DNA from: Bradyrhizobiaceae bacterium
Lineage (GTDB): Bacteria; Pseudomonadota; Alphaproteobacteria; Rhizobiales; Xanthobacteraceae
Reading direction: 5' to 3'
Assembly: GCA_947481685.1 (NCBI GenBank)
Contig: CANKHA010000008.1
Location: 1 to 64,000, forward strand
Length of the DNA stretch: 64,000 nt
The translations under genes and the position numbers were made by a program. Below, piece after piece: positions 48,185 through 51,226 of the stretch. How positions within the stretch are numbered: position 1 is the stretch's first letter; each line of letters opens with the position of its first letter. The notes beneath the pieces were generated by a model. The model had not been told where the DNA came from. It saw only the letters and a list, made by a program, of their open reading frames with translations, and did not search any database.

Positions 48185-48334
48185 GCAACCTCTAAGAGAG
48201 ACCGTGTGCGGGCCCGCGCCGGCAGAACGACGACCAACAATGGCGGGGGCGATACGGTCGAATCTGAGTCGATCGTTCAGCGGCGAACATAAGCCCGAAC
48301 GCCCAAAAGTCAAGTGCTGCAGTGCAACAAGTCC

Positions 48335-48358
48335 CGTAAAAACTTAAGGTTTTTTACG
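48335..48358 (-). terminator. possible terminator downstream of the EutA-like gene
   Basis: An inverted repeat with arms CGTAAAAAC and GTTTTTTACG around a TTAAG core overlaps the stop codon region of the reverse-strand gene. The stem is AT-rich and weak, so this call is tentative. Confidence 0.4.
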
Positions 48359-49898
48359 AAACTGTCGCATTTTGATCCTGGACGACCTGCTCCGCGCTCC
48401 AGTCCTTGCCGAGCCCCGCCGTGGTCGGGAAGACGAGGGATTTGATGACCACCGCGACGGCGCCGGAGCTTTCCATCATCCCGCCGATATCAATGAAGTC
48501 GAAATCCTTGAGTTCGAGACCGTCGATGGACACCACGGCGCTGGGAACCTTCATCTCCTCGCGGAGGTGAATGCCGAGAAGTCCGCCGACATCGCCGTCG
48601 CCGGCGAGGACGATGGGGTGGCCGCGGTCCAGAACCGGCTTCAGTCCTTCGACTGCGCCACGGCAGAAGGCGTCGAGGCGCTGGAAGGTGGCCGAACCTT
48701 TCCAGGGGACGAAGATCGCGACCGGGCTGTCGCCTTTGGCGAGGTCGAGCTGCTTGAGGGCGGTGGAGACGGCAGCCGCTACCGCTTTGGTATCGATCGT
48801 TTCTTCGAGCGGAAGATTGGGCGCGATCACCGGAATGTTGCGGAGTGGGACTGTTTCCAACGGCGCGATGAAGATCGTGCTGCCGCTGACCTGCGTAGTG
48901 TATTGCGAAGCGCCGACGACGGTGGCGCGAATGCCCTGGTCCGGCGTCTCAATGCGGGAGCACCAAGGCTCGACGCGCTTGCGAATCTCTTCGGCCAGCA
49001 TCGGACCAAGATCGCCGAATGACTTCTTCTCGCGCCCGTAGATGAATTCGGAAACGCCGCCGGAGAAAGTGACCTCATCGACCTTGCCGCGATAGGCGAG
49101 GGGATCGAGGCGCAGCAGATTGCCGCCTTCCGACGGAGAGCCGCCCTTCATCGCATCGAATAGCCGGTCGGCCATCAGCACGACGACCTTGCGCGCTGTT
49201 TCCGGCGGAAAAGCATCGCCAAGTTTCAGGTTCAGACCGAGGGCGGCGCCAAAACGGCGTCCGGCTTCCTCGATGCGGTTGATCTTGCCGTTGGCGTCGA
49301 CGCAGATGAGGCGTGCTCCGACGTCGATGGCGGTCAGCGCAATCACCTTGCCGTCGGCGCAGACGGAAATCTTCGATGTGCCGCCGCCGATGTCGACATT
49401 CATCACGGTGGAATTGTCGCGAACGGAACGCGCGGCCGCGCCCGAGCCAAAGGCCGCCATCACGGTTTCGAGGTTGTCACCGGCGCTGACCGCAACGAGC
49501 TTGCCGGCTTGCGCTGCGAACAACTCGCCGATCTTGCGCGCATTGCGCCGGCGCACGGCGACGCCCGTGAGGATCAGGGCGCCGGTGTCGATCTCGGCCG
49601 GATCGACATTGGCGTCCTTGTACTGCTGGTTGATGAAAGCGCCGAGCTTCTCAGCGTCTATCTCTTCCTTGTCGTTGTAGGGCGTGAGCAGGATGTCGGA
49701 CTGATAGAAAGTCTCGCGCTGGGTGACGACGTAGCGGCTATCCATCCGCTCCAGCACGATGCGCGAGAACACGAGATGTGAGGTCGATGACCCGATATCG
49801 ACGCCGACGCTGAGAATGATGATTTCATCCTCGCCTTCGAGCGTGCGTCCGACGTTGGAGAAGTAAACGCGTCCGGTTGCGGTGTCTTCGTATGGCAT
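48354..49898 (-). CDS. EutA-like ethanolamine ammonia-lyase reactivating factor
   Basis: A 514-residue protein of the EutA family, actin/Hsp70-like ATPases that free B12-dependent ethanolamine ammonia-lyase from damaged cobalamin. The two phosphate-binding loops are SVGVDIGSSTSHLVFSRI near residue 30 and MNVDIGGGTSKISV near residue 165; the sequence DAMKGG and EFIYGREKKSFGDLGPMLAEEI also match the family. No eutB, eutC or other eut gene is in the window, so the partner enzyme is unknown. It lies 110 bases downstream of the double-cupin gene on the same strand, so they are probably one operon. Function here is inferred from family only. Confidence 0.85.
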   Translation of the reverse strand: MPYEDTATGRVYFSNVGRTLEGEDEIIILSVGVDIGSSTSHLVFSRIVLERMDSRYVVTQRETFYQSDILLTPYNDKEEIDAEKLGAFINQQYKDANVDPAEIDTGALILTGVAVRRRNARKIGELFAAQAGKLVAVSAGDNLETVMAAFGSGAAARSVRDNSTVMNVDIGGGTSKISVCADGKVIALTAIDVGARLICVDANGKINRIEEAGRRFGAALGLNLKLGDAFPPETARKVVVLMADRLFDAMKGGSPSEGGNLLRLDPLAYRGKVDEVTFSGGVSEFIYGREKKSFGDLGPMLAEEIRKRVEPWCSRIETPDQGIRATVVGASQYTTQVSGSTIFIAPLETVPLRNIPVIAPNLPLEETIDTKAVAAAVSTALKQLDLAKGDSPVAIFVPWKGSATFQRLDAFCRGAVEGLKPVLDRGHPIVLAGDGDVGGLLGIHLREEMKVPSAVVSIDGLELKDFDFIDIGGMMESSGAVAVVIKSLVFPTTAGLGKDWSAEQVVQDQNATVS

Positions 49899-50008
49899 CC
49901 CGATATCTTTTCAATGTTATGCCCGGCAGCGCGGCAGTCTAGCTTGCGCAGACTGCGTAAACTTGCCTGCGCATGCCGGGCATGTGTTTTAGCGATTTGC
50001 GGAGCGGA

Positions 50009-51226
50009 TTATTCCGTCGGCAGCGGGCCTTTGTAGTTCTTGTCGTAATATTCCGCGCGCATGCGGTTCTCGACACCCGCGGCCTTGAGCCGTTCCTCGT
50101 ATTCCTTGCGGAGATGGGGATCTTCCATCCAGTACGGGATGGCTGTGCCGCCTTCCGGAATATCGCGGCCGGTATAGTCGGTATGCTTCTCGCCGGGCGG
50201 GCCGGGGTCACGGCCGGGATTGAACGGACCGAACCATGCGGTGAGGCGCAGCGGAGCCTGTGATGCCGCGAAGTGCTGGTGATACCAGCGTGCGCCGCCG
50301 GGAGCCGCGGTGACCATGCCGCTGTACTCGTAGTCGACGCGACGTACCTCGTCGCCTTTGCCGTCCTGCCACGGCGTGACGCCGTTCTTTTCCGGCCACG
50401 TGTATGTGTAGCCCTTGCCGGTGAGGCAGATCAGCACCGCCGCCGAGGTGTGCGCATGCGCCTTGGAGTAGCGGCCCATCTCGTGCTGACCGATCCAGTA
50501 ATAGAACTGGTTGTTGGTCATGAACGGCTCGACGCGGCGCCAGCCCGGAGAGCGACGGTTGTCCAGCGGCAGGTCGCAGTTGATCACGTCTGGGATGAAG
50601 TTGGTGCGGCGCATGGCAAGGCCACGCACTGGATCCGGCTCGACGTCATCCTTGTATTTATAGAAGTCGTCCGCGCTGCTGAAGCGGTCGGTGAACTTGA
50701 AGGGGTTGTTGAACACGGCATCGACGTTGTTGATCATGTTCAGCACGTTCGGCGCCGTGGTGCCGGCCATCAGCAGGGCAGGCTGCGACGACGCGTTGAC
50801 GATGCGGTGCATCGTGTTCATCGGGATCGAAAACATCGAGCCCTTTTGCCATTCGAAGGTGTGGCGCTTGGTGTCGCCCTCCATCCAGACCTCGGTGGAG
50901 CCGCGGCCTTCCACGACGAGGAAGACTTCCTCGTACATGTGCTTCTCGGGATTCAGCGCGCCGGCACCCGGCACTTCGACGACGTAGCAACCCCACTTGG
51001 TCTCGGTGCCGTAGAGCTGCACATACGTGCCGCGGCCGCCCGTGCGCTTCCACGGTTCGAGCGGAAGGTCATGTGCACGCTTGAAACCCATGCCGCGGAA
51101 GCAGGGAATGCCTTCCGAGTCCATGAACTCGTCATAGGGCGTCTTCTGCTTCTTGAAATCTCCGAAGCCGGCTTTCTTGCCGCCGGCCGGTTCGTGCCAA
51201 TGGGATTTGCTGGTGACTTCATGCAT
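50009..51226 (-). CDS. double-cupin protein paired with the EutA-like gene
   Basis: A 405-residue protein with two cupin domains. Domain 1 (about residues 65-165): PGAGALNPEKHMYEEVFLVVEGRGSTEVW, with His and Glu ligands in HMYEEV, and SIPMNTMHRIVN. Domain 2 (about 235-345): GRYSKAHAHTSAAVLICLTGKGYTYTW and, later, ARWYHQHFAAS, with His pairs fit to bind a metal. The residue spacing recalls gentisate-type ring-cleaving dioxygenases, but such relatives are also annotated as ethanolamine ammonia-lyase-associated proteins because they sit by eutA. The substrate cannot be assigned. It is divergent from pobA across 227 bases. Confidence 0.8.
   Translation of the reverse strand: MHEVTSKSHWHEPAGGKKAGFGDFKKQKTPYDEFMDSEGIPCFRGMGFKRAHDLPLEPWKRTGGRGTYVQLYGTETKWGCYVVEVPGAGALNPEKHMYEEVFLVVEGRGSTEVWMEGDTKRHTFEWQKGSMFSIPMNTMHRIVNASSQPALLMAGTTAPNVLNMINNVDAVFNNPFKFTDRFSSADDFYKYKDDVEPDPVRGLAMRRTNFIPDVINCDLPLDNRRSPGWRRVEPFMTNNQFYYWIGQHEMGRYSKAHAHTSAAVLICLTGKGYTYTWPEKNGVTPWQDGKGDEVRRVDYEYSGMVTAAPGGARWYHQHFAASQAPLRLTAWFGPFNPGRDPGPPGEKHTDYTGRDIPEGGTAIPYWMEDPHLRKEYEERLKAAGVENRMRAEYYDKNYKGPLPTE

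Follow-up and report, generated by a model that had tools for sequence, protein, structure and literature searches.

A branch of the EutA family paired with a predicted metal-dependent double-cupin protein

We analyzed a window of 64,000 nucleotides at the start of contig CANKHA010000008.1 from a Bradyrhizobiaceae bacterium, in which two adjacent genes of the minus strand encode a type A double-cupin protein (bicupin) of 405 amino acids (50009..51226) and a EutA-like ASKHA ATPase of 514 amino acids, of subtype A (48354..49898). The partnership between the two genes is well supported, since they stay together across genomes and in matching subtypes, and the pair does not represent a detached part of ethanolamine metabolism. 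What is new here is a branch of a known family, EutA, with an unexpected cupin partner; a literature search, with subscription papers outside its reach, found no description of a EutA-cupin pair. A first-pass annotation of the window had listed a eutA-like gene and a 405-residue double cupin, and we found both open reading frames (ORFs) in place, on the same strand. The cupin gene comes first and the EutA-like gene follows 110 bp downstream, with no minus-strand terminator-like site listed inside the intergenic gap (49899..50008).

Linkage and subtype pairing of the two genes

Scanning named genomes, we collected 79 related loci whose cupins share 69-80% identity with the window cupin. These loci are spread over Alpha-, Beta- and Gammaproteobacteria, together with one metagenome-assembled genome (MAG) labelled Acidobacteriota, and they include about nine near-identical Sinorhizobium/Ensifer clusters, so that enrichment p-values overstate independence. 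Where enough downstream sequence was available (69 loci), we observed EutA directly downstream of the cupin in 54 loci and 1-3 kb further on in 5, with a median gap of 62 bp between the matched cupin and EutA ends of these 59 loci. Among 341 genomes of the window's family, EutA was present in 40, and 38 of these 40, but no other genome, contained the cupin (Fisher p 2e-48, shared ancestry uncorrected). The two EutA genomes without a cupin are G857, which is 79% complete, and G867, in which EutA is located beside EutB. A cupin match was also observed in 8 genomes of a class-wide sample of 289, one of them marginal (G195); of the other seven, six possess a full EutA above the cut-off. In the remaining one (G226), a EutA match of 41 residues, located beside the cupin where the contig ends, narrowly misses the cut-off. 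The window's own genome contains two full EutA genes and a EutA fragment, and all three have an adjacent cupin.

In a tree of EutA proteins, the nine canonical sequences, archaeal, clostridial and fusobacterial ones included, are all on one side of a branch with a support of 100 in the Shimodaira-Hasegawa-like approximate likelihood ratio test (SH-aLRT), and the cupin-linked EutAs form three subtypes, A (which contains the window's protein), B and C. The rows of this tree, which has some long branches and was made in addition to an earlier one, were chosen by their phosphate-1 pattern; 119 of 140 matches passed, and 17 of the 21 that were dropped have a DIGSA-type variant. Three rows fitting no subtype, all three near a cupin, were set aside as "other", and the divergent EutAs of G505 and G867 were left out of the trees.

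The subtypes of the two partners match each other. EutA-A adjoins cupin A in 57 of 61 rows, a proportion biased upward because the A rows were gathered largely via A cupins, and 13 of 15 EutA-B rows have a cupin B next to them; the rows left over in both subtypes have no cupin in the available stretch, and a cupin of the other type is never the nearest. For canonical EutA, a neighbouring cupin was observed in 0 of 4 rows. The B pairing was found again in all six B places among 20 that were refetched; three of these six are already counted among the 15, and the three further ones are L211, L214 and L215 (3/3). This matching holds across cupins A and B that share only about 30% identity. In a less biased count, at least 46 of 84 EutA places have a same-strand cupin within 5 kb, 35 have no cupin on the contig and 3 have a farther one, among the cupin matches listed. 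The 22 rows of EutA-C are more heterogeneous: in 6 a B-like cupin adjoins on the same strand, in 2 the nearest cupin is of type A and encoded on the opposite strand, and in 14 the available stretch contains none. The C-type loci L196, L206 and L213 carry long His-rich tails, TctC receptors and short ORFs that by eye resemble thiamine-diphosphate enzymes, not cupins.

The two proteins and the absence of ethanolamine ammonia-lyase

Canonical EutA removes damaged cobalamin from ethanolamine ammonia-lyase with a requirement for ATP, as described in PMC5821096. The first-pass annotation had remarked that eutB and eutC are missing near the pair and had considered a lyase encoded elsewhere. We extended the search to the whole assembly of the window (3.26 Mb, 97% complete) and obtained 0 matches for EutB (PF06751) and 0 for EutC (PF05985); the remark thus holds for the whole assembly, and a lyase elsewhere is ruled out for this assembly. 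Ethanolamine metabolism was rejected for this assembly, and it is unlikely for most carriers of a non-canonical EutA. Indeed, among 50 genomes with EutA, EutB was present in 13 and the cupin in 43. In the six genomes with canonical EutA, it adjoins EutB (6/6) and the cupin was not found; the 44 genomes with non-canonical EutA contain the cupin in 43 cases and EutB in 7, a count of the kind that the first-pass annotation had suggested. EutB was not found in the other 37 of these 44 genomes, and in the 7 it is unlinked to EutA, the two lying on different contigs or, in G779, which consists of one contig, about 0.9 Mb apart. When EutB was searched in the genomes of 50 of the 79 related loci, 12 had a match, one of them a 50-residue fragment. 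As a side observation, a divergent EutB match (460-480 bits) is present in frames of 734-802 residues, possibly EutB-EutC fusions (G505:C6, G867:C50 and the genomes of L073 and L090), and in G505 and G867 a divergent EutA adjoins the divergent EutB.

A different B12 enzyme had also been envisaged as the client. In the window's own genome, the B12-binding domain gave one match above the cut-off, in an ORF of 1243 residues (MetH-sized, identity unconfirmed), plus one weak match. On this search, which covered only part of the B12 enzymes that lack this domain, we consider such a client unlikely.

The EutA-like protein matches Pfam EutA (PF06277) with 382.9 bits over residues 28-490 (gathering cut-off 27). 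With the four NCBIfam EutA equivalogs it obtained 321, 246, 204 and 189 bits, for cut-offs of 598, 769, 952 and 799; all four being missed, the protein is, to judge from its profile scores, a member of the family outside the ethanolamine-lyase EutAs of those models. Its predicted ATPase motifs, all on the minus strand, are phosphate-1 (DIGSST, residues 34-39, 49782..49799, read in the sequence), phosphate-2 (residues 169-174, 49377..49394, kept in 60 of 61 A-subtype rows) and the adenosine motif (SGGV, residues 279-282, 49053..49064, in 61/61). As phosphate-1 was used for row selection, its counts in other rows carry no weight. In Marinobacter algicola DG893, a frameshift or a sequencing error divides the A-type EutA into two ORFs (L121:11269-12777). 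Overall, the protein shares with canonical EutA the same Pfam family over nearly its full length, the ATPase motifs and a gene adjoining the presumed client, whereas it differs by a cupin partner in place of EutBC, by extra N-terminal tails, by the SH-aLRT 100 split and by the missed NCBIfam cut-offs.

The structural model of the EutA-like protein (pLDDT 83.4) has matches of the ASKHA fold. BadFG-type proteins are ASKHA ATPases that activate a partner enzyme, as iron-sulfur electron-transfer activators. The window's protein resembles these activators of 2-hydroxyacyl-CoA dehydratase and benzoyl-CoA reductase in its modelled fold (Z of about 14), but it belongs to PF06277 and falls below the cut-off of PF01869 (18.7 bits for 31.5). 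No diol-dehydratase or ethanolamine-lyase reactivase was among the best 50 VIA rows for the ATPase, which is uninformative either way.

The cupin passes the Pfam Cupin_2 and Cupin_1 cut-offs, with its best stretch in the N-terminal domain, and its AlphaFold2 model (pLDDT 85.7) presents a bicupin fold. In the VIA comparison, the best match was salicylate 1,2-dioxygenase (Z 20.4), with gentisate 1,2-dioxygenase at 20.1; enzymes of these two kinds fill the top ten rows (Z 19.1-20.4), and oxalate decarboxylases come next (18.8). Foldseek's own ranking of the model opens with MncA and vicilins/seed globulins, and therefore the modelled fold alone does not fix the function. No known cupin family was retained by sequence either, as the best PDB match had an E-value of 0.51 with the window cupin alone and 0.14 with the profile of A-type cupins (alignment A1). 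The sole NCBIfam match, 5-aminosalicylate 1,2-dioxygenase, was rejected at 15.8 bits for a cut-off of 650. At E-values up to 1, the window cupin gave no NCBIfam match to gentisate 1,2-dioxygenase (TIGR02272); another locus of the same genome, G000:C74, passes this model at 465 bits.

The first-pass annotation had proposed two potential metal sites in the cupin, HMYEEV on the one hand and HAH with HQH on the other. All these motifs are real and only the second site is strongly conserved. In an alignment of A and B cupins (A2, 40 rows), H257 and H259 of the HAH motif (residues 257-259, 50450..50458, minus strand) are present in 40 of 40 rows, and H316 and H318 of the HQH motif (residues 316-318, 50273..50281, minus strand) in the 39 of 39 rows ungapped there. 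The HMYEE motif (residues 96-100, 50927..50941, minus strand), a possible N-terminal site, is degenerate or lost in many B cupins. From the motifs and their strand positions, and from what we take to be the metal-binding residues of known gentisate/salicylate enzymes, we infer that three His residues form a metal site in the C-terminal cupin.

The comparison with gentisate dioxygenases, also suggested at first pass, gave a divided answer: the superfamily fold fits, but TIGR02272 is missed and the conserved site is in another domain than in the controls. The B-cupin profile matches gentisate dioxygenase 3bu7 (full-sequence E 2e-8) in the C-terminal cupin, where HxH and HQH align with HRH and HEH of the C-terminal cupin of 3bu7. 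With a profile of eight gentisate dioxygenase sequences, the A2 profile gave an E-value of 1.4e-6 (probability 90); the A1 profile alone gave 1.5e-5, but with its own N-terminal domain paired to their C-terminal one. In the eight TIGR02272 controls, H97, H99, H138, D139 and H140 are invariant (8/8), which places their HxH/HDH site in the N-terminal domain, unlike the conserved C-terminal HxH/HQH of the window cupin; 3bu7 shows a C-terminal motif too. Taken together, the cupin resembles gentisate and salicylate 1,2-dioxygenases (3bu7, 4fbf and 2phd) by the bicupin fold (Z of about 20) and the HxH plus HxH signature, and differs from them by an identity of about 13% and the missed TIGR02272 model. 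It is predicted to be a metal-dependent enzyme of the gentisate/salicylate dioxygenase fold.

Neighbouring genes and His-rich tails

As controls for the 79 related loci we took 40 windows of 20 kb each from two genomes, and we used neighbour profiles built from the same 79 loci, which favours detection there. Rieske oxygenase alpha subunits were observed in 22 of 79 loci and 1 of 40 control windows, BenC-like reductases in 21 and 0, class II aldolases in 24 and 4, and a family of substrate-binding-protein fold, which presumably resembles dihydroxyphthalate decarboxylases, in 21 and 1; ABC ATPases are also frequent among the controls. In the window's own genome, TctC-type carboxylate receptors of one cluster are present in 5 of the 7 other cupin/EutA regions, compared to 6 of its 20 control windows, and are often directly upstream of the cupin. 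The cupin-profile matches of this genome (G000) amount to a large paralog family for 3.26 Mb, several members being preceded by TctC-type receptors; 18 of the matches were listed, and the contigs with members of the family include C1, C8, C9, C10, C14, C28, C34, C37, C53, C60, C61, C66 and C98. Two very similar TctC-cupin regions among them (L134 on C34 and L136 on C98) perhaps stem from a recent duplication in the assembly or from differences between strains.

In the window, pobA adjoins the pair and is divergently transcribed, as had been annotated (TIGR02360 at 532.7 bits, just below the cut-off of 538.7; PRK08243 above its cut-off). A search at E 1e-20 found no pobA in the related loci, and we dropped this non-conserved neighbour as a pointer to an aromatic function. 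The broader proposal of the first-pass annotation, a metal enzyme or a role in aromatic degradation, is supported by the linkage, the co-occurrence, the cupin fold and the neighbouring genes. Just 3' of the EutA-like gene, a terminator-like hairpin (48315..48329, minus strand) is a consensus match only, in a scan that found 5 sites for 2.9 expected in shuffles, near chance level.

Nickel-type genes are also found beside the pair. In Phyllobacterium, genes for a HoxN/NixA nickel-cobalt transporter and for NikR come after the pair, and in Noviherbaspirillum humi a divergent NikR gene is beside the cupin. Among the 79 loci, HupE was observed in 13, NicO/HoxN in 7 and NikR in 5; at least one of them is present in 21 of 79 loci and 1 of 40 controls (Fisher p 0.0009, loci not independent). 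Representatives of each of these families, not every member, were confirmed by Pfam or NCBIfam, and a 30% NicO-like match in L113 was left out of the count. The HupE and NicO families may transport cobalt besides nickel, and it is these neighbours only that suggest nickel. Two further single-domain cupin families cluster near the pair (L118:4150-5297, minus strand; L111:17169-18483, minus strand, also near HupE), with a further case in L134 (7437-8015 and 13647-14261).

Histidine-rich tails were counted in the rows with the phosphate-1 pattern. All 17 EutA-B/C proteins listed have 3-8 His before the phosphate-1 motif, and none of the 52 EutA-A proteins listed has more than 2. The 14 refetched EutA-C places all carry a His-rich tail, and at least one B row of a wider set (L049) has only two His. 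On the cupin side, an N-terminal HWH motif is present in 88 of 90 cupin A rows and 0 of 24 cupin B rows, in counts without de-duplication from which 6 A and 5 B rows were excluded for lack of an anchor; in the window cupin it belongs to the tail motif HWHE (residues 9-12, 51191..51202, minus strand). So, from the sequences, one partner of each A or B pair, and as a rule only one, bears a His-rich tail. HypB and UreE are His-rich nickel metallochaperones with folds unrelated to that of the EutA-like protein. The tails of EutA-B and EutA-C are likewise N-terminal and His/Asp-rich, and nickel-type uptake genes are found at some loci; the pair differs by an ASKHA ATPase instead of a G3E GTPase and by the position of the tail on the cupin in A pairs.

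Proposed role of the pair and rival explanations

By analogy with the action of canonical EutA on ethanolamine ammonia-lyase, we propose that the cupin is an oxygenase in the catabolism of carboxylated aromatics and that the EutA-like ATPase serves to load its metal site or to restore it to activity, a reading that we favour while giving it slightly less than an even chance. The two genes would then be one functional unit. The active site of the cupin would be in its C-terminal domain, formed by His257, His259 and His316 with His318 in the second shell, and the enzyme would probably cleave or oxidise the ring of a carboxylated aromatic substrate. We infer physical contact between the partners: as the dedicated ATPase of the cupin, the EutA-like protein would bind inactive cupin in which the metal is missing, incorrect or oxidised, and use ATP to open it, so that the dead cofactor is released and a fresh one admitted, this cofactor being a metal and not B12. 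The metal, possibly nickel, may be delivered by the His-rich tails, that of the cupin in A pairs and that of the ATPase in subtypes B and C.

Several observations weigh against this proposal. EutA-C is mostly unlinked, since 13 of 14 C places with wider flanks have no cupin and the remaining one has a cut fragment. Conversely, 10 of the 69 loci with room for it have the cupin and no EutA in the available stretch, and the window's own genome, with 24 cupin-profile matches for two full EutAs and one EutA fragment, has many cupins without such a partner. The HAH motif is replaced in two more distant A-type rows of A1 (L011 and L012) despite an adjacent EutA, and the nearest solved folds of the ATPase are exopolyphosphatases (Z 18.0), not reactivases. 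Among the neighbours, TctC receptors (two clusters) are common in control windows too, no nickel-type gene is present within the window, and the NicO relatives of L116 and L117 are far below the cut-offs of nickel-transporter models. Nickel is unproven, because gentisate dioxygenases are iron enzymes.

The main rival explanation is that the EutA-like protein is itself a catabolic enzyme, such as an ASKHA kinase, a phosphatase or an ATP-dependent hydrolase/carboxylase, and that the cupin performs a neighbouring step of the same pathway. The resemblance to exopolyphosphatases ahead of dehydratase activators, the pathway-type neighbours and the C subtype mostly without a nearby cupin would agree with this; however, the A-A and B-B pairing across such distant cupins and the near-perfect co-occurrence look like protein partners, and nearly the full EutA length is retained, so that we consider this explanation unlikely, though a serious competitor. 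It is improbable that the linkage reflects the shared inheritance of catabolic islands, in which unrelated genes are transferred together: the distribution is patchy (cupin in 9 of 47 genera of the family sample) and the sample rich in MAGs, but the adjacency is kept in differing neighbourhoods of Alpha-, Beta- and Gammaproteobacteria and is also present in the diverged B pairs. A module for sensing, storing or buffering nickel or another metal, without catabolic chemistry, would account for NikR, NicO and HupE as neighbours and for the His-rich tails; we find it quite improbable, as neighbours of the Rieske, reductase and class II aldolase types occur no less often and the paralogous cupins of a single genome fit substrate-specific enzymes better. 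Finally, reactivation of a B12 enzyme encoded elsewhere, with an incidental cupin, is largely refuted and very improbable, the Pfam match of 383 bits and the EutB of 7 non-canonical-EutA genomes being outweighed by an own assembly without EutB and EutC, by the missing or unlinked EutB of the 44 genomes, by the scarce B12-binding matches and by scores far below the NCBIfam equivalog cut-offs.

The pair also has consequences for annotation. A related gene in the Phyllobacterium record L052 is labelled ethanolamine ammonia-lyase reactivating factor, a label that probably misleads because the Phyllobacterium genomes L106 and L112 have the pair and EutB was not found in them. The pair is more general than is visible from a single sequence, and the idea lends itself to direct tests with the paired families of Sinorhizobium, Phyllobacterium and Massilia, which can be cultured. 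As a wider and more doubtful suggestion, this branch of EutA could be a novel type of ATP-driven metal activase that would insert or renew the active-site metal of non-heme cupin oxygenases, with the delivery tail on the enzyme or on the ATPase according to the subtype and perhaps with nickel as the metal, which could add a nickel-dependent step to aromatic catabolism. Non-heme metal oxygenases lose activity on oxidation or loss of their metal. If the proposal is true, reactivation at the expense of ATP would not be confined to radical B12 enzymes but would include these oxygenases.

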